36,684 nucleotides of DNA from a virus, in IMG/VR virus record IMGVR_UViG_3300046820_000391, positions 1-36,684 of that record; one strand, written 5' to 3'. Position 1 is the stretch's first letter. Each line of letters opens with the position of its first letter. This document shows positions 1,587 through 16,325 of this stretch, in pieces. The notes under the pieces were generated by a model. The model made no database searches. It was not told where the DNA came from and was given only the letters and a program-made list of their open reading frames with translations. The position numbers and the translations under genes were made by a program.

Positions 1587-1724
1587 TTATCCGACAAATT
1601 CTTTCCATTGCCAGTTGGCCCATTGCCGCATTGTGTCGCTCGACCATTCATGCTTGCGCCATTTGGCAAGCAGTGCAGCCCTATCTTTGTTGCCGCTTTG
1701 ATTGTGGCGTATCAGGTCAGTCAT
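1587..1724 (-). CDS. Small hypothetical protein, 45 aa
   Basis: Starts at an ATG (1724-1722) that overlaps the end of the preceding HTH gene by 8 bases (ATGACTGA), the overlap style used throughout this operon. The product is Trp-rich and basic (WRKHEW, WANWQWKEF) with no membrane segment or Cys motif. An in-frame extension upstream to 1847 would run antiparallel to nothing but would overlap the HTH gene by 131 bases, so the short form is preferred. I recognise no family. Its place between a DNA-binding protein and terS suggests a phage regulator or packaging accessory, but that is a guess. Confidence 0.5.
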   Translation of the reverse strand: MTDLIRHNQSGNKDRAALLAKWRKHEWSSDTMRQWANWQWKEFVG

Positions 1725-1971
1725 AAAATCCGTCGCCGTCAATTTCATCATCATCATCGCAATCGTAATCCAAATGGTCGGGTCTGTATCCATCAAGGAT
1801 AGCTTCGAGTGCAACGGCAGCAGGGCCAGTGATTTCCCTTTTTCCACTCATCCATGCGCGAACAGTCGTGCTTCCAGATGTGCTACTTAAGCGCAATGCG
1901 TCGGCTATTTCACCAACGCTCCAGCCCAGCTTTTTCTTTGCGTCCTTAACGTCTTGTGCTGTTTGTATCAT
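1717..1971 (-). CDS. Helix-turn-helix DNA-binding protein with acidic tail
   Basis: 84 residues. Residues 5-60 look like a small XRE/Cro-type helix-turn-helix: WSVGEIADALRLSS followed by TVRAWMSGKREITGPA, with the typical VRAWMSGKR recognition-helix region and a GPAAVALEAIL helix. The C-terminal 20 residues are strongly acidic (DYDCDDDDEIDGDG). The start overlaps the stop of the DnaA-like gene (ATGA). It probably regulates transcription of this leftward operon or of the late genes beginning with terS just downstream. The target site is unknown. Confidence 0.75.
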   Translation of the reverse strand: MIQTAQDVKDAKKKLGWSVGEIADALRLSSTSGSTTVRAWMSGKREITGPAAVALEAILDGYRPDHLDYDCDDDDEIDGDGFYD

Positions 1972-3705: not shown

Positions 3706-4205
3706 TAGTTCATCCCTTTGTTGGTGTTCAGTGATTGCAGTAATTCGTTCTTCAGTTCTGCCATTTCATCGGCAGTGATATAATCCGGCTCTTGCTTGGC
3801 GATGCGCGGCGCGTTGAAGTTATCGACCAATGCCTGTGCATGGCGTATCGCGTCATTCGCCCAACGCACGGCTTCAGGTTCAAACTTGCAGATGAACGGC
3901 ACAATCTTGGCAGGGTGGTCGCAGTTACGACGGGCTTGCTCACAGGCGCGTTGCAGTATCGACAACGGGATATGGTTCACCGTCATGATAGCGGCTTTAC
4001 ACCAAGCTGTCCGTTCGCCCTCCTGCATACCCGATGGAGCGCACAGCATTAGGCATGGCATCAATAGTGTAATGATTTCCTGTGATGTTGCTGGCCGATA
4101 TTTGTCCTGCGCTGCTTTCAAAGCTTCCAGTGCCGCCTGATATTTCGTGCAATGCTTGTCGGGCTGCTCGTTCTGTAACGCCCATTCCATCAAATTCTTT
4201 TCCAT
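3705..4205 (-). CDS. Replication-associated hypothetical protein overlapping the replication initiator
   Basis: 166 residues, all-helical, with SQEIITLLMPCLMLCAPSGM followed by ERTAWCKAAIM and CDHPAKIVPFI. This pattern resembles proteins next to replication initiators in alphaproteobacterial prophages, as I remember them. Function is unproven; a helicase loader or replication partner is possible. The ATG at 4205 has a strong ribosome site (AAGGGG, seven bases upstream) that lies inside the coding sequence of the upstream gene. The first 70 codons are overprinted with the end of that gene in another frame. It ends in TAATG overlap with the MazG gene. Confidence 0.75.
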   Translation of the reverse strand: MEKNLMEWALQNEQPDKHCTKYQAALEALKAAQDKYRPATSQEIITLLMPCLMLCAPSGMQEGERTAWCKAAIMTVNHIPLSILQRACEQARRNCDHPAKIVPFICKFEPEAVRWANDAIRHAQALVDNFNAPRIAKQEPDYITADEMAELKNELLQSLNTNKGMN

Positions 4206-4818
4206 GTAATTGCCCCTTTATTTCGTAAATATCTGCCCAGCAGTTCAATGTGCTTCGGTCTAATACTGCCGCTACATCCTGACCAGCTTGGCGCATTGCA
4301 TCAAGCTTGTTTATCGCCTTCATTGTGGCTCTGGCTGTCAGCGGCTTCTTTTTGACCTTCCGCATTTCAACCCACCCCAGCCAAGCAGGGACAGGCATCC
4401 AATCGGGCAAATCCACTATATCTTGTTTTCCATCTGGTTTAATAACTGGTTTTATATCTGGTATAGGTTCGCCCTTCTGGGCTTCTTCATTTGACCTTTT
4501 GGGCAAATGGGTTTGCAGGTTTAGGCAAGTCGGTGCATACCATTTTGTTCTGTCATAAGCTGATTTGTTATAACAGCCACTGATAATCAATCCGCTGGCT
4601 TCCAGCTTCTCCAAAGCGGTTCGGATTTGCTTGCCAGTGAGATACGGGAACAATTCAGCGAATGCCGTGATGCTGTTATATGTCCACCAGCGACCATCAT
4701 AAAAATGCCTGTCATTGGCAGCGTTCTTTTCAGCCCAGTAAAATAGGTTTTGGTAAATCACAGCGGCGTTGCAACCGACCTGTGCAGCGATGGCAGGGTC
4801 GAAGTGATGGGCGCTCAT
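3997..4818 (-). CDS. Winged-helix replication initiator-like protein
   Basis: 273 residues from the ATG at 4818, chosen because AGGGG lies eight bases before it; an in-frame ATG at 4890 gives 24 more residues but lacks a well-placed site. Residues 1-90 (HHFDPAIAAQVGC, NLFYWAEKN, TYNSITAFAELFPYLTG, LEKLEASGLI) form a winged helix as in phage replication O-like proteins that bind the origin. A middle basic stretch (KVKKKPLTARATMKAINKL) and the ending NCWADIYEIKG are usual for this group, which normally stops soon after. Here a further 70-residue Ser/Gly/Ala-rich tail runs 209 bases into the next gene. It probably recruits helicase to the phage origin. Confidence 0.75.
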   Translation of the reverse strand: MSAHHFDPAIAAQVGCNAAVIYQNLFYWAEKNAANDRHFYDGRWWTYNSITAFAELFPYLTGKQIRTALEKLEASGLIISGCYNKSAYDRTKWYAPTCLNLQTHLPKRSNEEAQKGEPIPDIKPVIKPDGKQDIVDLPDWMPVPAWLGWVEMRKVKKKPLTARATMKAINKLDAMRQAGQDVAAVLDRSTLNCWADIYEIKGQLHGKEFDGMGVTERAARQALHEISGGTGSFESSAGQISASNITGNHYTIDAMPNAVRSIGYAGGRTDSLV

Positions 4819-4893
4819 TGCAAAGCCCCTTGCGCGATTGTATTGTGGTGTATATAATTGTTCATATGCGGTGCTTTCCTCGATTAGCATTGC

Positions 4894-4964: not shown

Positions 4965-5318
4965 CTACTTTGTTTGCCGAAATTCGATTGTCGGGAACAA
5001 GGCTTTGAATATCGCCTTGCGTAACGTGAAGTCGGCAGTGATTACCCCTTTAATATCTTCACAAATTTCCTGACCGCTTTCCGTGTAGGAAAAGTCTGGC
5101 TTATATCCAACTCGCCGCCCGTTATCGTGCTTCACCTGGCTGCCATTAATGATGAACCAAAACTGCGGCTGGATGACCAAATCGGCAATCTCACCCGCAG
5201 CCCACAAATCGTGAAGTTCATCACATCGCGCAGCTTCGCGCTTGCTGTCATGCTTATGGCACTGGGAGCAATACGCTTTTTTAGCGTTGAATTTCGACCG
5301 ACGATTAAACAGCACCAC
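4965..5318 (-). CDS. DUF1064 family nuclease-like protein
   Basis: 117 residues. DSKREAARCDELHDLWAAGE, LVIQPQFWF, VGYKPDFSYTESG and ICEDIKG follow the DUF1064 pattern: a PD-(D/E)XK-like core (D in KPDFSY, E-D-x-K in the last motif) seen in phage proteins near replication genes. An N-terminal CSQCHKHDS pair plus Cys further on could bind zinc. It is a candidate Holliday-junction or recombination nuclease; activity is inferred from fold only. GTG start at 5318 overlaps the regulator's TAG by one base; a second GTG follows directly, so the start may be three bases later. Confidence 0.82.
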   Translation of the reverse strand: MVLFNRRSKFNAKKAYCSQCHKHDSKREAARCDELHDLWAAGEIADLVIQPQFWFIINGSQVKHDNGRRVGYKPDFSYTESGQEICEDIKGVITADFTLRKAIFKALFPTIEFRQTK

Positions 5319-5599
5319 TATTCCGATGTCTGTTCATCATAGTTTAAAAGGGCGTCCCACATCGCTTTTTTATCAGCTTCACTGCGCGGGGGTCTGTTTC
5401 TAATTTTCTCCGAAATCAATTCATCCAATGCCTTTTCAACAGCCAGATATGCTTCCAACATTGGCGTTGAACGATTGCGCTTCCAGTTGCTCAATGTGAC
5501 CCGACTTAGGCCAGCGGCCTTGGCAAGTTTGCCAGCGGTAATGTTGTGTTCTGCGGCGCGTCCGTAAATACGCATAACGGCTTGATGGCTTAACGTCAT
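5318..5599 (-). CDS. XRE-family transcriptional regulator at the divergent promoter
   Basis: 93 residues. The helix-turn-helix HNITAGKLAKAAGLSRVTLSNWKRNRSTP (about residues 18-46) is typical of Cro/CI-like repressors, with SRVTLSNWKR as recognition helix. The C-terminal half is short and helical; there is no LexA-like peptidase domain, so it would not be cleaved in an SOS response. It is the first gene leftward from the divergent control region and its ribosome site AAGGA precedes ATG 5599. It is the best candidate to bind the 14-bp palindrome at 5644-5657 and so set the balance between the two early operons and its own synthesis. Confidence 0.85.
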   Translation of the reverse strand: MTLSHQAVMRIYGRAAEHNITAGKLAKAAGLSRVTLSNWKRNRSTPMLEAYLAVEKALDELISEKIRNRPPRSEADKKAMWDALLNYDEQTSE

Positions 5600-5628
5600 T
5601 TCATGTCCTTTTTGCTAAATGCAAAGCG

Positions 5629-5672
5629 CATATAAAAAAATGCTTTACATATGTAAATAGGCGTTTTAGAAA
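5629..5672. promoter_or_regulatory. Divergent early promoters sharing a palindromic -35 region
   Basis: The 14-bp perfect palindrome TTTACATATGTAAA (5644-5657) gives TTTACA on both strands. Rightward: TTTACA (5644-5649), 17 bases, TAGAAA (5667-5672). Leftward: TTTACA (5657-5652), 17 bases, TATATG (5634-5629). Each direction leads to a gene with its own ribosome site (AAGGAG before 5693; AAGGA before 5599). A protein bound to the palindrome would cover both -35 elements. The XRE regulator encoded at once to the left is the obvious candidate. Confidence 0.75.
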
Positions 5673-5692
5673 AAGCACAAGGAGCAAACATT

Positions 5693-5902
5693 ATGGACAT
5701 TGAAACTTGCACAATTTGCGGCTTTGGGCTGACATCTGCTTTTTGCTGCCCAGCTTGCGATGCGGCTGACGCAATTGTTGAAGCTGGCGGCTGTCACCCA
5801 AATTTTAAAGAAGCGTTAGCTGAAAAAATAGGCAACATTCTTTTGGACAATGATTGGCACACGACCTTCAACGTCCGCAAAGTTTATCCACGGTTTTTTT
5901 AA
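5693..5902 (+). CDS. Small Cys-rich (zinc-ribbon-like) protein, 69 aa
   Basis: First gene of the rightward operon, with AAGGAG six bases before the ATG. CTICGFGLTSAFCCPAC (residues 6-22) has two CxxC pairs spaced as in a zinc ribbon or treble-clef knuckle. The rest is helical and has no known domain. Being first after the early promoter, it may be an early host-takeover or regulatory protein; that is inference. It ends ten bases before the ERF start. Confidence 0.7.
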   Translation: MDIETCTICGFGLTSAFCCPACDAADAIVEAGGCHPNFKEALAEKIGNILLDNDWHTTFNVRKVYPRFF

Positions 5903-5912
5903 GGAGCAAAAA

Positions 5913-6482
5913 ATGAGTGAAGATAAAATATGCGCTGCGTATGTTGCAGCATTTGCGGAATTGGAGGCAGCAACAAAGACTGCCAACAATCCGCATTTCA
6001 AATCTAAATATGCCGACCTTCCGACAGTGATTGATGCTATCAAGCCTCACCTATCAAAGCATGGCCTTGCATTTATGCAGATGCCCAAGCCAAGCGACGG
6101 CGGCATCTCAATCGAAACCATTCTGATACACAGCAGCGGTGATAAGCTTTCGATGGGCGTGTTGTTTGTTCCAGCCAATAGGCAGGACGCACATGGTTAT
6201 GGTTCGGCCCTGACCTATGCGCGGCGATACGCACTGCAAACTTGCTTCGGTCTGCCGACAGAGGATGACGATGGCAACGCAGCGGTTAAATCGCAGCAGC
6301 CAGCGCCACGGGTTAAGTTTATCAATGCCCTCCAATTTGATGAATTGCAAAAGCTTGTGGATTACACTCGCACCGATTTGGCCTTGCTTTGCAAGCATTA
6401 CAAAATTGACGCACTTCATGAATTGCCAGAAAGCCGCTTCGATGCTGTTAAGGCCGCGCTCGAAAAGAAAATCGAAGCATGA
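5913..6482 (+). CDS. erf: ERF-family single-strand annealing recombinase
   Basis: 189 residues from ATG 5913, chosen for the ribosome site AAGGAG seven bases upstream; an in-frame start at 5850 would overlap the previous gene. Residues 5-120 are the ERF domain: ANNPHFKSKYADLPTVIDAI near the N-terminus and the hallmark YGSALTYARRYALQTCFGL near residues 101-119. ERF proteins anneal complementary single strands for phage recombination and genome circularisation. The C-terminal part after a Gln/Pro linker is variable and helical. SSB, NinB and nuclease genes lie downstream in the same operon, forming a phage recombination set. Confidence 0.92.
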   Translation: MSEDKICAAYVAAFAELEAATKTANNPHFKSKYADLPTVIDAIKPHLSKHGLAFMQMPKPSDGGISIETILIHSSGDKLSMGVLFVPANRQDAHGYGSALTYARRYALQTCFGLPTEDDDGNAAVKSQQPAPRVKFINALQFDELQKLVDYTRTDLALLCKHYKIDALHELPESRFDAVKAALEKKIEA

Positions 6483-7162
6483 CGGATATTGGACACAACC
6501 AGCCGCCGCCAGTTGACGCGATGGGCTTGCACATTGAGGATTTGTTCCAACTGGTATCAGACACCTTGGCTGGCGTTGATGCAGTGAAAAACGATGAACA
6601 GGATGCAGCGCTTGATGGTCTGCTTGATGATTTCCGCAAGGCGCGGAAAGACGCCGACGAATATCGTGCAGCGGAAAAACGACCGCATGATGAAGCAGCC
6701 AAGGCGGTGCAAGCAAAATGGAAGCCGTTGCTTGACCGATGCGATATGGCAACAGCCGAAATCAAAGCCAAGCTGACACCATATCGCAATGCCAAGATTG
6801 CTGCGCGTGAAGAGGCTGTTCGCATTGCGCGTGAAACTGCCGAGCAAAAGCAGAAAGCCGCACAGGATGCGCTTCGGCAGTCAGATGACTTGGAGGCCCG
6901 TTTTGCTGCCGAGGAACAACTTAAGCAAGCTACAATCCTGACAGCGGCGGCAAATCGCGCCGACCGTTCCGCAACTGGTCTTAGGACTACATGGATTGCC
7001 CAAATCACCGACCGCCGCGCTGCCCTAAATCACTATTTGCGCGAACAGCCCGAAATGTTTGAGCGCCTCATTCAAGACCTTGCGGACAAGGATGCACGTA
7101 ATGAGGCAACGCGCCGAAACATTGCAGGAATTGTATTCATTCAAAAGAAGGAGGCAGCTTAA
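6479..7162 (+). CDS. ERF-associated coiled-coil protein
   Basis: 227 residues, start overlapping the ERF stop (ATGA). N-terminus MTDIGHNQPPP is a motif that I recall from proteins beside ERF genes in alphaproteobacterial phages. Residues 40-165 are rich in Ala, Lys, Glu and Arg with heptad-like spacing, so they are likely a long coiled coil; the last 60 residues are helical and globular. No catalytic motif is seen. It probably works with the annealing protein or in replication. Function is inferred from context only. Confidence 0.75.
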   Translation: MTDIGHNQPPPVDAMGLHIEDLFQLVSDTLAGVDAVKNDEQDAALDGLLDDFRKARKDADEYRAAEKRPHDEAAKAVQAKWKPLLDRCDMATAEIKAKLTPYRNAKIAAREEAVRIARETAEQKQKAAQDALRQSDDLEARFAAEEQLKQATILTAAANRADRSATGLRTTWIAQITDRRAALNHYLREQPEMFERLIQDLADKDARNEATRRNIAGIVFIQKKEAA

Positions 7163-7500
7163 TGTTGAATTTTCTGAAACGTAAAACCCCATCGGAAAAT
7201 CCGGTGGAGGAAGGATTAAGGTTGGCTAAACTGTCTGCCAATAAGCAAGGCCCAGAATGGCAAGCGGCTGCATATCAGGCTTATGTGGAACACGCCAAGC
7301 GCCACAGGTTCTTTACCACCGAAGATGTGCGGAAGGCTGCAAAGAACGTCCCTGCCGCCTCAAACAACAGCGCATGGGGGCATATCGCAAAGAAGGCCAG
7401 TAAGAACGGCATCATGGTGGAGTTTGAAACCATGCGGTCGAAAAGCGCCTCCACGCACGGGCGGCACATCATCATCTGGCAATCGACGTTGCTGTCATGA
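7162..7500 (+). CDS. Hypothetical phage protein, winged-helix-like, 112 aa
   Basis: Starts in TAATG overlap with the previous gene, with AGGAGG nine bases before the ATG. Residues 40-112 show helices (YQAYVEHAKRHRFFTTEDVRKAA; WGHIAKKASKNGIM) followed by HGRHIIIWQS. This layout is common in small phage proteins that look like winged helices, but I know no function. It stands between a recombination-associated protein and an HNH-type nuclease. Confidence 0.68.
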   Translation: MLNFLKRKTPSENPVEEGLRLAKLSANKQGPEWQAAAYQAYVEHAKRHRFFTTEDVRKAAKNVPAASNNSAWGHIAKKASKNGIMVEFETMRSKSASTHGRHIIIWQSTLLS

Positions 7501-7844
7501 TGTTACCGCGCAAGATACCAAAAGAGGCAAAGCGCCAAAGCCGCTGGAAGTCGCCAGCGCATTGCAATTTTGTCAGGGGTCACGCCTGTTCCATATGCGG
7601 CAGCATGGCAGGAATTGAAGTTGCCCACGTTCGCTATGGAAGCGGCGCTGGCATGGGACAAAAGCCGCACGATTGGTTTACTGTCAGCCTGTGCAAGCAA
7701 TGCCACACAAGGCAGCACAGCGTTGGTGAACTTACATTCTGGGCAACGTATAACACCAACCCATTTGCTTTGGCCGAAGCGTTTGCAAAGGCCAGCCCGA
7801 AAGCGGCTGAAATAGCTGCCAAGAAACGGGAGTTGGGGTTATGA
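7497..7844 (+). CDS. HNH-type nuclease (DUF968/Ref-like)
   Basis: 115 residues. CSICG (about 31-35) and LCKQCHTRQHS (about 65-75) supply four zinc-ligand Cys/His residues, with AHVRYGSGAGMGQKP between them giving the His of the first HNH strand. This matches small phage HNH nucleases of the DUF968 or RecA-dependent Ref-like groups used in recombination. Two tandem ATGs (7497, 7500) overlap the previous stop. The protein ends in AAKKRELGL, the same ending as the next protein, because the gene junction is duplicated (7818-7845 and 8210-8237). Confidence 0.78.
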   Translation: MMLPRKIPKEAKRQSRWKSPAHCNFVRGHACSICGSMAGIEVAHVRYGSGAGMGQKPHDWFTVSLCKQCHTRQHSVGELTFWATYNTNPFALAEAFAKASPKAAEIAAKKRELGL

Positions 7845-7845
7845 C
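7818..7845 (+). repeat. Gene-junction direct repeat, copy 1
   Basis: 28 bases that begin GCCAAGAAACGGGAG and end in GGGGTTATGAC. They contain the last codons of the HNH nuclease, its TGA and the overlapping ATG of the next gene. The second copy at 8210-8237 differs at two bases only. The two copies enclose the whole alpha-CTD-like gene. Confidence 0.9.
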
Positions 7846-8236
7846 TGACATCATAAACGTGCCGATTAGAAACTGTGGATTTTCCACACGTTTGGCAAAC
7901 ATCTTATACAATGATGGTTATATAACGACTGATGACCTTTTCAAAAAGCCAATGGAAGAATTGCTGTCTGAAATGAGGCGTTGCTTTAACTTCGGCAAAA
8001 AATCAGAAGAAGAATTAAAGGACTGGATGTATCTTATACATTCTTTGAATTGCAGTGATTTCAAGAAAGATGTGGGCCAGCTTGCAGACCTTTATGACCT
8101 TCAAGCACAGGTGACAAATTTGATAATCCAAAAACAAAAGCAGATGGACGCTTTGCTGTCAGAAATTGAACCAGACGCATATTATTATGCAGATGCAATT
8201 GTGTCTTTAGCCAAGAAGCGGGAATTGGGGTTATGA
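7841..8236 (+). CDS. RNA polymerase alpha-CTD-like protein
   Basis: 131 residues. Residues 7-64 resemble the C-terminal domain of the RNA polymerase alpha subunit: VPIRNCGFSTRLANIL, then ILYNDGYITTDDLF, then LLSEMRRCFNFGKKSEEELKD, which mirrors the LSVRs.NcL / tvgdL / NfGrKSleEI pattern of that helix-hairpin-helix fold. The remainder is a helical, Gln/Lys-rich tail. A role in steering host RNA polymerase, or simply in DNA binding, is possible. The gene is clearly richer in A and T than its neighbours and is enclosed by a direct repeat, signs of recent arrival. Confidence 0.7.
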   Translation: MTDIINVPIRNCGFSTRLANILYNDGYITTDDLFKKPMEELLSEMRRCFNFGKKSEEELKDWMYLIHSLNCSDFKKDVGQLADLYDLQAQVTNLIIQKQKQMDALLSEIEPDAYYYADAIVSLAKKRELGL

Positions 8237-8237
8237 C
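8210..8237 (+). repeat. Gene-junction direct repeat, copy 2
   Basis: 26 of 28 bases match 7818-7845. It includes the end of the alpha-CTD-like gene (KKRELGL codons), its TGA, and the overlapping ATG of ninB. Confidence 0.9.
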
Positions 8238-8619
8238 GCAGACGGTTATTTTGCGGGGCCAGCCACAGCGTGATTTGGCCAAGCAATTGATTGATAAGGC
8301 CCCCGTCGATGCAGTTGTCAAAATCAGCGAAGCCAAGCGCAGCGATGACCAAAACGCAAAAATGTGGGCCATGCTTTCAGACATCAGCCGTGCAAAGCCA
8401 GAGGGCAGGGCGCACATACCTGAAATTTGGAAGTGCATTTTTATGGCTGCATGCGGTCATCAAGTGAGATTTGAACACGGTTTAGATAATCAGCCGTTTC
8501 CCATTGGTTTTAATAGTTCGCGCTTGACAAAGCCACAAATGTCAGACCTTATAGAATGTATAATTTCATATGGTCAGCAACATCGGGTTATTTGGAGTGA
8601 CGGAATTGAGAAATATTAA
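8233..8619 (+). CDS. ninB: NinB/Orf recombination mediator, C-terminus altered
   Basis: 128 residues. AKRSDDQNAKMWAMLSDIS (about residues 34-52), a Trp/Lys helix (IPEIWKCIFMAACG) and LTKPQMSDLIECIISYG near the end are typical of the NinB (lambda Orf) family, which binds single-stranded DNA and helps load annealing or strand-exchange proteins. It overlaps the alpha-CTD gene stop by 4 bases. The natural end seems disturbed: after VIWSD the frame closes quickly in AT-rich sequence belonging to the following HNH gene, and a second NinB-like end (VKWSEKYE) lies at 9108-9137. Confidence 0.88.
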   Translation: MTQTVILRGQPQRDLAKQLIDKAPVDAVVKISEAKRSDDQNAKMWAMLSDISRAKPEGRAHIPEIWKCIFMAACGHQVRFEHGLDNQPFPIGFNSSRLTKPQMSDLIECIISYGQQHRVIWSDGIEKY

Positions 8620-9109
8620 CGGAACCTTTGTAAAAGGTTCGCAGCATTTAATCAGGCATGGAAAGGCCAAAACAAAAATATACAACATATGGAATGCAAT
8701 GAAGGATAGATGCCAAAATCCTAACAATGCAGCATATAAAAATTATGGTGGAAGGGGAATTAAGGTTTGCGAAAGTTGGCAGGATTTTTCTAATTTTTAC
8801 GCAGACATGGGTGAACCAACTGACGGCATGACTTTAGATAGAATTGATAACGATGGAAATTATTCTAAAGATAATTGCAGGTGGGCAGGGCGGCGTCAAC
8901 AAAGCCTAAATAGAAGAAACGCCGTAAAATTAACAATCAATGGTGAGACGCTTTCTGTTTCCCAATGGGCCGAAAGAAGCCCAGTTTCGGCAGGCACAAT
9001 TTACGCACGACTTAAAAATGGCTGGGCGCACGATTTGGCTGTTTTTTCAAACAAAGTATCTCGCTTGGGAATACCCAGAGGTAAGATGCTTAGAGATTTT
9101 CAACAATAA
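8606..9109 (+). CDS. HNH homing-type endonuclease inserted at the ninB 3' end
   Basis: 167 residues from TTG 8606 (GGAG eight bases upstream); an ATG at 8570 in the same frame would give 12 more residues but has no ribosome site. IYNIWNAMKDRCQNPNNAAY, YKNYGGRGIKVCESW, FYADMGEPTDGMTLDRIDN and YSKDNCRWA are the sequence landmarks of free-standing phage HNH endonucleases (motif N..Y...GGRGI.VC through LDRIDN.GNY...NCRW). A C-terminal domain (VSQWAERSPVSAGTIYARLKNGW) looks like a small DNA-binding helix-turn-helix. The gene is AT-rich and overlaps ninB, as expected of an intronless homing gene. Catalysis is inferred from family. Confidence 0.85.
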   Translation: MRNINGTFVKGSQHLIRHGKAKTKIYNIWNAMKDRCQNPNNAAYKNYGGRGIKVCESWQDFSNFYADMGEPTDGMTLDRIDNDGNYSKDNCRWAGRRQQSLNRRNAVKLTINGETLSVSQWAERSPVSAGTIYARLKNGWAHDLAVFSNKVSRLGIPRGKMLRDFQQ

Positions 9110-9137
9110 CGTAAAATGGAGCGAAAAATATGAGTGA
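9108..9137 (+). pseudogene. Possible displaced ninB C-terminal remnant
   Basis: The bases after the HNH stop read NVKWSEKYE then stop in one frame, and this stop overlaps the next gene's ATG by 8 bases, as is normal for junctions in this operon. The peptide resembles the VIWSDGIEKY end of ninB at 8588-8619. This is what would remain if the HNH gene entered ninB just before its end. Confidence 0.4.
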
Positions 9138-9363
9138 ACCACACAGCGAACAGCTTCGGCTTTTGATTGAGCGTATCGAGCGTTTGAATGAAGAAAAGAA
9201 GGGCATCAGCGATGACATCCGCGACGTTTACAACGAAGCCAAAGCGCACGGATATGACACCAAGATTGTCCGCGCCGTTATACGCCTTCGTGCAATGGAA
9301 GATAATGACCGCCAAGAATACCAAGCCGTCCTCGACACATATATGACCGCCCTTGGTCTTTGA
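9130..9363 (+). CDS. GapR-like (DUF2312) nucleoid-associated protein
   Basis: 77 residues, essentially one GapR/DUF2312 domain. [31 protein letters not shown] and the ending [14 protein letters not shown] match the family along its full length. Cellular GapR binds AT-rich, overtwisted DNA ahead of replication forks and RNA polymerase in alphaproteobacteria and helps topoisomerases. A phage copy may organise phage DNA during replication or compete with the host protein. The gene sits between ninB and ssb in the replication operon. Confidence 0.9.
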
Positions 9364-9374
9364 AAGGAAACACC

Positions 9375-9815
9375 ATGTCATCATTGAATAAAGTCAGCTT
9401 GTTGGGTTCGCTTGGCGCTGACCCAGAAATAAAATCGTTCCAGAATGGTGGTCGCGTCTGCAATTTGCGGCTGGCAACATCCGAACGCTGGAAAGACAAA
9501 AACACTGGCGAACAAAAAGAAACGACCGAATGGCACAGCGTGTCCATTTTTAGCGATGGGTTGGTCGGCGTTGCAGAGCGGTTTCTGACCAAGGGCAGTA
9601 AGGTCTATATTGAAGGCCAACTGAAGACCCGCAAATGGCAGGACGCCAGCGGCAACGACAAATACAGCACGGAGATTGTGTTGAACGGCCCAAAGGCTGC
9701 GTTGATTTTGCTGGGCAGCAAGGGTGAGGCAAAGCCACTGGATGCGTCTGTTGACCCATCAAAGGGTGAACATAACACTTGGGATAATGACCTCGACGAT
9801 GACGTTCCGTTCTAA
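9375..9815 (+). CDS. ssb: Single-stranded DNA-binding protein
   Basis: 146 residues from ATG 9375 (AAAGGA upstream); an in-frame TTG at 9360 is less likely. The OB fold begins NKVSLLGSLGADPEIK, continues with RLATSERWKDK and TEWHSVSIFSDGLVGVAE, then LTKGSKVYIEGQLKTRKWQD. It ends in the acidic tip DLDDDVPF that in bacterial SSBs binds partner proteins, so this phage SSB should recruit host or phage partners. It protects single strands made during replication and ERF recombination. Confidence 0.95.
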   Translation: MSSLNKVSLLGSLGADPEIKSFQNGGRVCNLRLATSERWKDKNTGEQKETTEWHSVSIFSDGLVGVAERFLTKGSKVYIEGQLKTRKWQDASGNDKYSTEIVLNGPKAALILLGSKGEAKPLDASVDPSKGEHNTWDNDLDDDVPF

Positions 9816-9825
9816 GGGCTGCACC

Positions 9826-10161
9826 ATGACAAAAATCACAATCAAAGAAGTCGTTGACCAGTGCAGGATTTACGCTTGCGACAAAAAGGTGGCGGAGGTG
9901 CTTAATTGCCCCGTCACCTTGGTCGAAGCCTGTAGGCCCATGATTTACAGTCGTGGGCAGAGGCGCGATGGTTTGGGGCTGAACGAAGATACTGGAAAGC
10001 ATTGCCAAGTGACTTTGCGTCACAAAACGGAAGCCGAAAGCATCAAGGTTGCAAGCCAAAGCCTTCTTATCAAGCAACTGGAAACGGGGCATCACTGGCT
10101 ATCGAACGACAGATTTTTTGCTGTCGTTTCAAAGCTAAATCCCGAGCTGGGGTTGCTATAA
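9826..10161 (+). CDS. Hypothetical DNA-binding-like protein, 111 aa
   Basis: Starts at ATG 9826, just after the ssb stop. An upstream in-frame extension overlaps ssb and is not supported. Residues 5-40 (VVDQCRIYACDKKVAEVLNCPVTLVEACRP) look like a helix-turn-helix, and the C-terminal half is helical (ESIKVASQSLLIKQLE). I recognise no family. It is the last gene before module C, so it ends the first part of the rightward operon. Confidence 0.65.
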   Translation: MTKITIKEVVDQCRIYACDKKVAEVLNCPVTLVEACRPMIYSRGQRRDGLGLNEDTGKHCQVTLRHKTEAESIKVASQSLLIKQLETGHHWLSNDRFFAVVSKLNPELGLL

Positions 10162-10182
10162 TGCAATAAATGAAAAAAGTGC

Positions 10183-10234
10183 TTTACATATATATTAAGC
10201 GACTTTATATGGGTGGTCAGGGGCAGATGCCCCG
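10183..10234 (+). promoter_or_regulatory. Rightward promoter and leader hairpin (module C)
   Basis: -35 TTTACA (10183-10188), 17 bases, -10 TATATG (10206-10211), then hairpin GGGGCA-GA-TGCCCC (10220-10233; also drawn as five pairs with a four-base loop) and GCC. It is followed by a ribosome site TAGGAG and ATG 10256. The arrangement equals modules A and B on the opposite strand. It should drive the small-gene cluster independently of the main early promoter. Confidence 0.75.
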
Positions 10235-10255
10235 CCATCCATAGGAGTTTTAATT

Positions 10256-10369
10256 ATGACCATTCGTGAAATTATCCAATCGCAGCCATTGAGCGAAATC
10301 ATCAGCGGCATTGCGATGGTTATTGTTCTACCCATCGCGTTCATCGCATTGATGGTGGTGCTGCCATGA
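10256..10369 (+). CDS. Small single-pass membrane protein, 37 aa
   Basis: First gene after module C, with AGGAG ten bases before the ATG. The short polar start (MTIREIIQSQPLSE) is followed by a membrane segment (ISGIAMVIVLPIAFIALM) that fills the rest. The stop overlaps the next ATG (ATGA). Tiny early phage membrane proteins often inhibit host envelope functions or block superinfection; nothing here shows which. Confidence 0.6.
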   Translation: MTIREIIQSQPLSEIISGIAMVIVLPIAFIALMVVLP

Positions 10370-10539
10370 AAAAAACTCTTACAGTTGAAGAACGCCGTCA
10401 GTTTTACAAGGGGGTTACTGAAGCCCTGTGGGAACGCATAAAAATAGAAGGCTTAGATGCTGATGCAGATGCGCCACATCCCGACGATTACGATGGCGGA
10501 CGCTTTGATTTTTACACAACACGGGGAATTTCAAAATGA
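10366..10539 (+). CDS. Hypothetical acidic protein, 57 aa
   Basis: ATG overlaps the upstream stop and its own stop overlaps the next ATG, both as ATGA. The N-terminal half is a basic helix (VEERRQFYKGVTEALWERIK). The second half is acidic and poor in helix (LDADADAPHPDDYDGGRF). No known family. The tight overlaps on both sides support it as a real gene. Confidence 0.55.
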   Translation: MKKTLTVEERRQFYKGVTEALWERIKIEGLDADADAPHPDDYDGGRFDFYTTRGISK

Positions 10540-10691
10540 CGCAGCCAAACACGACATCTGAATTGACCATACGCACTGCCGCCCCGATGGGCCTGAAGCA
10601 TCGCGTCAGCCCTCAATCAGCATGGCCTTTGCGCGGTGCAGACGGAAAGACGTTTGCAGAGCGCCGCAAGGAACAGGAGCAAAGCAAATGA
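10536..10691 (+). CDS. Hypothetical protein, 51 aa, ending in EQEQSK
   Basis: Short, basic, with no recognisable fold. It ends with RRKEQEQSK, codons that double as the ribosome site (AGGAG) of the next gene in the junction sequence at 10671-10695. A near copy of this junction gives the same ending to the 58-aa protein at 11458-11634, and a related one ends the protein at 11007-11327. Confidence 0.55.
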   Translation: MTQPNTTSELTIRTAAPMGLKHRVSPQSAWPLRGADGKTFAERRKEQEQSK

Positions 10692-10695
10692 GTGA
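10671..10695 (+). repeat. Second type of gene-junction repeat, copy 1
   Basis: 25-base junction holding codons for EQEQSK, a ribosome site, the TGA stop and the overlapping ATG. Core CAAAGCAAATGA. Copy 3 at 11614-11638 matches it at 23 of 25 bases. Confidence 0.8.
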
Positions 10696-11014
10696 CGATA
10701 GCATTGAAGCAAAAGCCTTGGCACTGGTGAACGAGTTAGCTGCGATTTACGCAAAGCGCGCCTTTACTGTCAGCGAACCACATCTGTCGGGCTATCGTAT
10801 TCTTATTGGGTTTGACAGAAATGCGGACGCCGACGCGCTCTTTCACAGTCTGCCAATCCTTTCGGATTTCATCCCCAAGCCCAAGCCTGACCCGCTGGTG
10901 GAGGTGGCAAAAAGCTTAGGATATTTCAACACCACCGCGCAACATTGGGCTGGAGATGTCCGCGCCGCACTGGACGCCCTTGGCTTTGAGATAAGGGAAA
11001 AGAACGATGAGTAA
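10688..11014 (+). CDS. Hypothetical protein, 108 aa
   Basis: ATG 10688 lies in the junction repeat; a longer in-frame version from 10622 would overlap the upstream gene heavily. Residues 1-60 look alpha/beta (EAKALALVNELAAIY; YRILIGFDRNADADALFHSLP), a linker of Lys-Pro pairs follows (PKPKPDPLVEV), and the last 30 residues are helical (HWAGDVRAALDALGFEI). No family recognised. The stop overlaps the following ATG by 8 bases. Confidence 0.62.
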   Translation: MSDDSIEAKALALVNELAAIYAKRAFTVSEPHLSGYRILIGFDRNADADALFHSLPILSDFIPKPKPDPLVEVAKSLGYFNTTAQHWAGDVRAALDALGFEIREKNDE

Positions 11015-11327
11015 TGAACACGAACGCTTTTACAAAACCGTTCCAATGGTCGGCACGATACCGGAGAACAGCAGGGGCGCAGGCGGCACTGGTTTGCAGC
11101 CTGTGGTCTGCGGCAAAGTTGCAGCGGCTGGCACTGACCGAATTGGTGGGGCTGGCGTTGTGATGCATAGTGTTGTCGTTGCCACACAGAGCGATGCGCT
11201 GCATGAACAGCTTTTGCAGGAATGCTTGGTTAAGTTGCGTGATGTTCAAGGGACGCAAGCGCCGAAGCAATACGCCTGCAATTTAATCAAGCGCATTGAG
11301 CGGGTGCTACAGGGGCAAAGCAAATGA
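11007..11327 (+). CDS. Hypothetical protein, 106 aa, ending in QGQSK
   Basis: Gly-rich, poorly ordered first half (GAGGTGLQPVVCGKVAAAG) and a helical second half (DALHEQLLQECLVKLRDV; CNLIKRIERVL). No known domain. The ending QGQSK comes from the shared junction sequence at 11309-11328, which also carries the AGGGG ribosome site for the next gene. Confidence 0.58.
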   Translation: MSNEHERFYKTVPMVGTIPENSRGAGGTGLQPVVCGKVAAAGTDRIGGAGVVMHSVVVATQSDALHEQLLQECLVKLRDVQGTQAPKQYACNLIKRIERVLQGQSK

Positions 11328-11328
11328 G
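11309..11328 (+). repeat. Second type of gene-junction repeat, copy 2
   Basis: Same core CAAAGCAAATGA as the copies at 10671 and 11614, here preceded by ACAGGGG. It includes stop, overlapping start and ribosome site. Confidence 0.75.
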
Positions 11329-11461
11329 CAACCCAATCCAAACTAAGCGCATTAAAATGGCTGATAAACGCAAGGGCAAGGGCATCTTCTATTTTTCAGG
11401 AAGCAAGGCTGGCCGCATTTCATGGGCTGATTGGTTTTATATACGGGAGAAGGGGCAATGA
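11324..11461 (+). CDS. Small basic protein, 45 aa
   Basis: Starts inside junction copy 2 and ends in ATGA overlap with the next gene. Composition is basic and aromatic (KRIKMADKRKGKG; WADWFYIREKGQ). It is too short for family assignment. The final codons again supply an AGGGG ribosome site for the next gene. Confidence 0.5.
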   Translation: MSNPIQTKRIKMADKRKGKGIFYFSGSKAGRISWADWFYIREKGQ

Positions 11462-11634
11462 GCGCAACATGGCAGCAATATGCGAACGACTTTAACGCCC
11501 TGACCGACGAGCAAATTGAAGCCGAGTGTGACCAGTGCCGTAGGGACATTGACGAAGCAGAAAGCTGGCTGGAAGCCGTTGCAGCTTGGGAGGCAGCGGG
11601 TAGGCCACGCAGGGAACAGGAACAAAGCAAATGA
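11458..11634 (+). CDS. Hypothetical acidic helical protein, 58 aa, ending in EQEQSK
   Basis: Start ATG 11458 has AGGGGC just upstream; an in-frame start at 11431 overlaps the previous gene and lacks a site. The product is one or two acidic helices (FNALTDEQIEAECDQCRRDI; SWLEAVAAWEAAG). The ending REQEQSK is shared with the protein at 10536-10691 through the duplicated junction. Function unknown. Confidence 0.58.
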   Translation: MSATWQQYANDFNALTDEQIEAECDQCRRDIDEAESWLEAVAAWEAAGRPRREQEQSK

Positions 11635-11638
11635 CTGA
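11614..11638 (+). repeat. Second type of gene-junction repeat, copy 3
   Basis: Differs from the copy at 10671-10695 at two of 25 bases. It contains the EQEQSK codons, the AGGAAC ribosome site, TGA and overlapping ATG. Confidence 0.8.
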
Positions 11639-11837
11639 ACACGACCTACACCTGATTGAGATAGGTGAGAGGGCTGGCATAGAAGCCGCCATCAATGCGT
11701 TGGAAGCCGACGCCAAGCTATGCGATTGCGCTGCGCTGGAAGAAAGTGAGTGCGCTTGCGGGGCGTGGGCTGATTACAAGACCATTACATCAACGAGGGC
11801 GATTGAGATTGTCCGTGCATTAAAGGAGAAAAAATGA
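11631..11837 (+). CDS. Hypothetical Cys-containing protein, 68 aa
   Basis: Helical acidic N-terminus (LIEIGERAGIEAAINALEAD) followed by CDCAALEESECACGAW, four Cys that could bind a metal, then a helix (RAIEIVRALKEKK). No known family. It overlaps both neighbours by 4 bases, so it belongs to the small-gene operon. Confidence 0.6.
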   Translation: MTEHDLHLIEIGERAGIEAAINALEADAKLCDCAALEESECACGAWADYKTITSTRAIEIVRALKEKK

Positions 11838-15488: not shown

Positions 15489-16325
15489 TTAATCCTTAAC
15501 AGGGCGAAGCTCGACGTTTTCAGTCCAAGCGGCACGGGCTTCCTCGCCAATCAACCCCAAGAATGGGCAGGGTGTTCCGGCCATCTCCATTGCCCTAAAG
15601 ACGCGAAAGTCTTGGCATAGGAGGCTCACAGCGGCAACGCGCATACCCATATCGTAAAGCGTCTTGGATAGCTTCATACGTTCGCAGTTTTGGTCACGCA
15701 CAGTGCGGCCAGCCGACAGGCCAATGATTTGCGTCTGCACAGCGCCCGATTGCCCCGTGGTGCAAAGGTCTTGGCTGTATGACATCATCGACGGCGCGAT
15801 GGCGCTTGGTGGCGGCGACTTGATGTTCTGGTCGATAATCTGGCGATTGACGCTTTCACTGTAACTCTTGCTGTCGCTGACGTTGACGTTGTTGTTTTGG
15901 TTTACGTTGTTGGATGTCTGATTGATGGTGTCGGTGTTGTTGCTAGTGACGTTGCTGTTGACCGTCTGATTTACCGTGCTGTTGCTAACGTCGGTGTTGA
16001 AATTGCGATTGGTCGCGTCGGATGTGTTGACGTTCGTATTCTGATTGATATTGGTCATCGTGCCAGAATTGATATTGTTATTTGTGTTTACCGATGTGCT
16101 GGTGCTGACATTGACGTTGTTGTTGGTGTTGGTGTTTGCCGATGTGCTGGTCGAAGTGTTGTTATTGTTATTCGTGTTGGTGCTGGTGGACGTATTGTTG
16201 TTGTCCGATGTGCTGGTCGTGGTCGTGGTATAGACGTATTCCGTTGGCGCAACAGATACAGCCTGTGCCAGCACCATCGACGATGATGCAATTAACGCGA
16301 TAAGAGCCAGCACAAATTTTTTCAT
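15489..16325 (-). CDS. Exported protein with long Asn/Thr/Ser low-complexity region
   Basis: 278 residues. Signal peptide MKKFVLALIALIASSSMVLAQ, then about 120 residues made almost only of Asn, Thr, Ser and Val (residues 33-156). The C-terminal domain carries Cys residues (DLCTTGQSG, DQNCERMKL, LLCQDFRVF, GTPCPFLG), which could form disulfides. I recall this C-terminal domain from proteins of marine and freshwater phages, where it is a suspected structural or envelope-acting protein. The gene overlaps the next by ATGA and may overlap the following one as well. Function unknown. Confidence 0.75.
   Translation of the reverse strand: MKKFVLALIALIASSSMVLAQAVSVAPTEYVYTTTTTSTSDNNNTSTSTNTNNNNNTSTSTSANTNTNNNVNVSTSTSVNTNNNINSGTMTNINQNTNVNTSDATNRNFNTDVSNSTVNQTVNSNVTSNNTDTINQTSNNVNQNNNVNVSDSKSYSESVNRQIIDQNIKSPPPSAIAPSMMSYSQDLCTTGQSGAVQTQIIGLSAGRTVRDQNCERMKLSKTLYDMGMRVAAVSLLCQDFRVFRAMEMAGTPCPFLGLIGEEARAAWTENVELRPVKD

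Follow-up and report, generated by a model that had tools for sequence, protein, structure and literature searches.

The lambda CI/Cro OR region and the DicA/DicC region of the Qin prophage each place a small helix-turn-helix (HTH) regulator next to a short gap between divergent genes, with operators that overlap promoter elements and divergent early units on either side, and both rely on three operators and two opposing regulators. Controller proteins of restriction-modification systems, such as C.Esp1396I, are small XRE proteins that autoregulate and control a divergent promoter, and their operators are paired sites, not one palindrome. Warman and colleagues described bidirectional promoters in which a symmetric promoter serves two directions and opposing polymerases cannot both bind; in five such promoters of E. 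coli, exclusion had little effect at basal activity and mattered only when one direction was strongly active (PMC12825309).

The locus considered here lies in an uncultivated virus genome, IMG/VR record IMGVR_UViG_3300046820_000391, of which the whole stretch of 36,684 nucleotides (hereafter, the window) was analysed. The record has no terminal repeat, and its left end truncates the large terminase gene; it is accordingly treated as near-complete and not as proven complete.

Gene layout, regulator and probable host

Rightward genes span positions 5693-11837 and all others run leftward, as judged by open reading frames and family matches. The 93-bp gap at 5600-5692 is the only divergent junction in the window, and AT skew changes sign near the boundaries between rightward and leftward genes. 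The leftward unit begins with the XRE gene (5318-5599, - strand), followed by genes for a DUF1064/Holliday-junction-resolvase-like protein (4965-5318, -) and a replication initiation O-like/DnaD-like protein (3997-4890, -), both assigned by family match, and then for MazG, a DnaA-domain protein, terminase, portal, head, tail, and endolysin. The rightward unit begins with a gene for a Cys-rich protein of 69 aa (5693-5902, +) that has no family match, continues with an ERF single-strand annealing protein (5913-6482, +; Pfam ERF, E = 7e-26), and includes exonuclease, HNH, NinB, GapR, and SSB genes. The initial annotation described two early operons, a description too narrow for the leftward unit, where the replication genes are followed, in the same direction, by those for terminase, portal, head, and tail.

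Other genes observed in the window include one in the rightward operon for a 131-aa protein with an RNA polymerase alpha C-terminal-like domain (7841-8236, +), present in none of the 14 related records searched; one for an 80-aa protein that consists of a DnaA C-terminal DNA-binding domain alone (1968-2210, -) and is conserved in several relatives; and one for an Asn/Thr/Ser-rich low-complexity protein between the tail and lysis genes (15489-16325, -). A nucleotide search among cultured phages returned nothing beyond a weak match, in a replication gene, to a Lactobacillus phage.

The first product of the leftward unit, and the proposed palindrome binder, is an XRE/Cro-C1-type HTH protein of 93 aa that matches Pfam HTH_3 at 30.2 bits against a curated cut-off of 23. 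Its AlphaFold2 model is confident and all-helical, with lambda-repressor-like helices, and its best relatives in the PDB by both sequence and fold are those of the P22 C2 repressor (36% identity, 1.5 Å). It is an HTH protein without a cleavage domain, and its aligned relatives, of 67-105 aa, consist of a DNA-binding domain with a short tail at most. The recognition helix, R-V-T-L-S-N-W, is invariant in 30 aligned relatives. No XRE relative was found in cultured phages, and none was recovered from bacterial genomes save three short partial matches to the helix region. A second small HTH protein, with a weak HTH_3 match, is encoded within the leftward unit at 1717-1971 (-).

This phage group probably infects Alphaproteobacteria. 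A GapR-like DNA-binding protein is encoded at 9130-9363 (+; Pfam, E = 1.9e-32), GapR is present in 14 of 15 related records, and among control genomes the GapR profile matched Caulobacter only. An alphaproteobacterial host fits both the distribution of GapR and the form of the -10 hexamers in the divergent gap, which lack a T at -7 in both directions in 29 of 29 contigs. In studied Alphaproteobacteria this T is missing from more than 60% of sigma70 promoters, and CarD has been proposed to help such promoters (PMC8407463). The TTG triad of the alphaproteobacterial -35 element was absent, both -35 hexamers of all contigs in the window's clade (clade A) carrying TTT.

Palindrome and predicted promoters in the divergent gap

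Between the XRE gene and the 69-aa gene, at exactly 5644-5657, lies the perfect 14-bp palindrome TTTACATATGTAAA, the proposed operator. Its two arms, 2 bp apart, supply a TTTACA hexamer on each strand. Rightward, TTTACA (5644-5649, +) is followed after 17 nt by TAGAAA (5667-5672, +), with a predicted start near 5679; leftward, TTTACA (5652-5657, -) is followed after 17 nt by TATATG (5629-5634, -), with a predicted start near 5622. This arrangement, proposed in the initial annotation as divergent promoters built on one palindrome, was confirmed to the base, and each pair, with 9 of 12 consensus matches, is the top-scoring pair on its own strand of the gap. A standard promoter scan requiring T at the last -10 position misses both promoters. 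The -10 hexamers are 32 bp apart and not common to both directions, and the predicted starts are about 57 bp apart, so that polymerase footprints would be expected to overlap.

In dinucleotide shuffles of the gap, a perfect palindrome of at least 14 bp arose in 2.4%, a divergent promoter pair with two 17-nt spacers and at least four of six matches per hexamer in 2.8%, and such a pair with the exact abutting geometry in 0.1%. The palindrome is also the only perfect one of at least 14 bp in the whole window, against 4.4 ± 2.1 expected, and is located in the divergent gap. Elsewhere in the genome it is matched only with two or three mismatches, not clearly above chance. Conservation among relatives outweighs these shuffle figures as evidence.

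Conservation and loss of the palindrome among relatives

Close relatives were collected by protein sequence alone, with 20 contigs from a protein-only search and 33 from an alignment search. TTTACA-NN-TGTAAA is kept in the gap of 28 of the 33, and the five exceptions (L083-L087), with one arm broken, are the most divergent at 58-66% identity. When the 56-nt core is compared in 21 distinct versions, none of the 12 arm positions varies; of the 44 other positions 17 are invariant, chiefly in the -10 blocks, which are largely kept. The difference gives a hypergeometric P of 9e-5, the sequences being homologous and not independent. Among four-fold sites of the XRE gene, by contrast, 14 of 20 vary. 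The palindrome centre alternates between TA and TT, the rightward -10 may be CATAAA or AAGAAA, and the leftward -10 may be TATAGG, TATGGA, TATGGG, or TATACG. Both 17-nt spacings are nevertheless kept in every one of the 29 contigs, including some relatives with a 22-nt insertion before the XRE gene, and five contigs with a wholly different rightward leader (L066, L078, L079, L082, and L088) still keep TTTACA-17-CATAAA. In all 11 clade A records the palindrome is single copy and always in the divergent gap, and in most relatives the 69-aa protein is the divergent partner of XRE. Divergent promoters with palindrome arms as -35 elements, and a small XRE gene alongside, are thus all conserved, and common control of the two directions is plausible, being better supported by this comparison than by the single sequence.

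Conservation of the arms would be expected equally from two functional -35 elements alone. The gap may hold a pair of ordinary promoters, set back to back, with -35 hexamers identical by chance, the palindrome being a by-product and the XRE protein acting at another site within the gap or outside it. Such an origin accords with the way the symmetry ends at the hexamers, whose invariant flanking bases differ between the two sides (A and G), and with distant relatives that keep the layout, gap length, and recognition helix with unequal hexamers; it is harder to reconcile with the 58 arm hexamers of 29 contigs, every one of which is TTTACA, with T at position 3 where the sigma70 consensus has G. 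A G at this position is confined to loci with a broken palindrome, and the invariant columns of the 56-nt core show no further block of evident symmetry. A by-product palindrome is regarded as rather unlikely.

In a wider search, extending to 80 contigs and down to 38% identity, most deeper relatives proved to have divergent genes about 90 bp apart (80-121 bp), with an operator-like sequence that varies: TTTACATATCGCAAGC in clade B, TAGACATATGTAAAGC in clade C, TTTACA-N15-TGTAAA in L208, and direct TTGTAAA repeats 11 bp apart in clades D and E. Upstream of the XRE gene in L209-L252, such repeats, or a single TTGTAAT, replace the palindrome. An interlaced promoter layout for clades D-F was considered from the sequences and is too weak to claim. 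At the eight loci with one arm changed (five of the 33 contigs and three further divergent ones), the changed hexamer (TTGCGA, TTGCGG, TTGAGA, TAGACA, or TGGACA) always has G at position 3; likewise, in clades B and C, the arm departing from TTTACA always takes the G of the promoter consensus. This pattern suggests a second constraint besides sigma, a bound protein, holding both main-clade arms at TTTACA, and is the chief ground for that view. An extension of this idea is offered tentatively, namely that the repressor operator occupies the same bases as both -35 elements, that the repressor and not sigma fixes the sub-consensus TTTACA, and that sister clades release one arm towards G at position 3. 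If true, the family would show an operator capturing and releasing core promoter elements.

The deeper relatives also limit the role of the palindrome. TTTACA/TGTAAA occurs in the gaps of all six of the most divergent representatives, against 0.6 expected for these homologous sequences, with the recognition helix invariant; this enrichment is supporting evidence only, as it is confounded by homologous descent and -35 function. Relatives with a broken or missing palindrome keep the same recognition helix, so XRE may bind somewhere other than the palindrome. Across the family the divergent layout does not depend on a perfect palindrome, an arm being lost in distant relatives with the same recognition helix.

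Proposed switch and comparison with known systems

The main reading, given a probability of about 0.6, is that back-to-back promoters and an XRE dimer on the palindrome that shuts both form an autoregulated early-gene hub with no lysogeny module. The two promoters would be of the sigma70 type in alphaproteobacterial style, with 17-nt spacers and no T at -7, and host polymerase would start both units after infection. The leftward promoter would serve the XRE gene, replication, terminase, and probably structural genes, and the rightward promoter the small Cys-rich protein, ERF, exonuclease, NinB, GapR, and SSB. As the XRE protein built up, its dimer on the palindrome would cover both -35 elements and turn both promoters off, resulting in Cro-like negative feedback. 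We infer promoter activity, start sites, XRE binding to the palindrome, two-way repression, and steric exclusion of polymerase from the sequence, and consider XRE binding and mutual exclusion of polymerases plausible. The predicted rightward leader, just 14 nt long with a Shine-Dalgarno sequence at its 5' end, counts against this reading. Given the small effect of exclusion at basal activity in E. coli, polymerase competition alone is a weaker argument than the initial annotation made it.

Unequal action from the same site, in which the XRE protein would repress one promoter while assisting polymerase at the second, as regulators of the CI and DicA types can, has a precedent in DicA, a C2-like relative reported to repress a divergent gene and activate its own (PMC10448788). 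The two -10 hexamers and their flanks are indeed asymmetric, but a dimer seated between the -35 elements would cover both and leave no promoter to activate, and there is a single site; such unequal action is improbable. It is more doubtful still that the palindrome is a host-regulator site or part of a replication origin and not an XRE operator, since the gap, although within the most AT-rich 0.25% of 93-bp stretches and next to replication genes in a phage encoding O-like and DnaA-domain proteins, contains no DnaA box in a window with no excess of them, and the palindrome keeps a fixed 17-nt spacing to both promoters in all clade A relatives as a single copy per genome.

If the two-way repression reading is true, one 14-bp element would control both halves of a whole phage genome and offer a natural system of very small size for testing how operator binding competes with promoter recognition. 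The relatives are a ready-made variant series, from perfect palindrome through one broken arm to rearranged half-sites. Even an ordinary reading of the gap identifies the control hub of an uncultivated, probably alphaproteobacterial phage group with promoters of the host's -7-less type.

The initial annotation called the element a compact switch simpler than lambda OR/PR/PRM, a comparison that is loose and does not hold well. No tyrosine or serine integrase (PF00589, PF00239) was found in 15 records, some of which may be incomplete, although the profiles did match the controls; on this account Cro-like feedback is preferred to a lysogeny switch, which is unlikely, and the phage is probably virulent. 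Tandem operators between two regulators were absent, the divergent partner of XRE being either ERF or the 69-aa protein, which has no regulator match. In contrast to the three operators and two opposing regulators of lambda OR and DicA/DicC, the locus has one palindrome and one HTH-only regulator, without a CI-type C-terminal domain, facing a recombination operon. The operator arms of P22 C2, which we take to be ATTTAAG, resemble TTTACA, but the XRE protein lacks the cleavable dimerisation domain of C2 and differs from it in recognition residues and operator spacing. C.Esp1396I is a small XRE protein of similar fold, and no restriction-modification genes were seen beside the XRE gene. The bidirectional promoters of Warman and colleagues share a -10 element, with starts beside or within it (PMC12825309), whereas here the -35 elements abut and the predicted starts lie well apart. 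The element is a compact example of a switch type already known and not a new principle.
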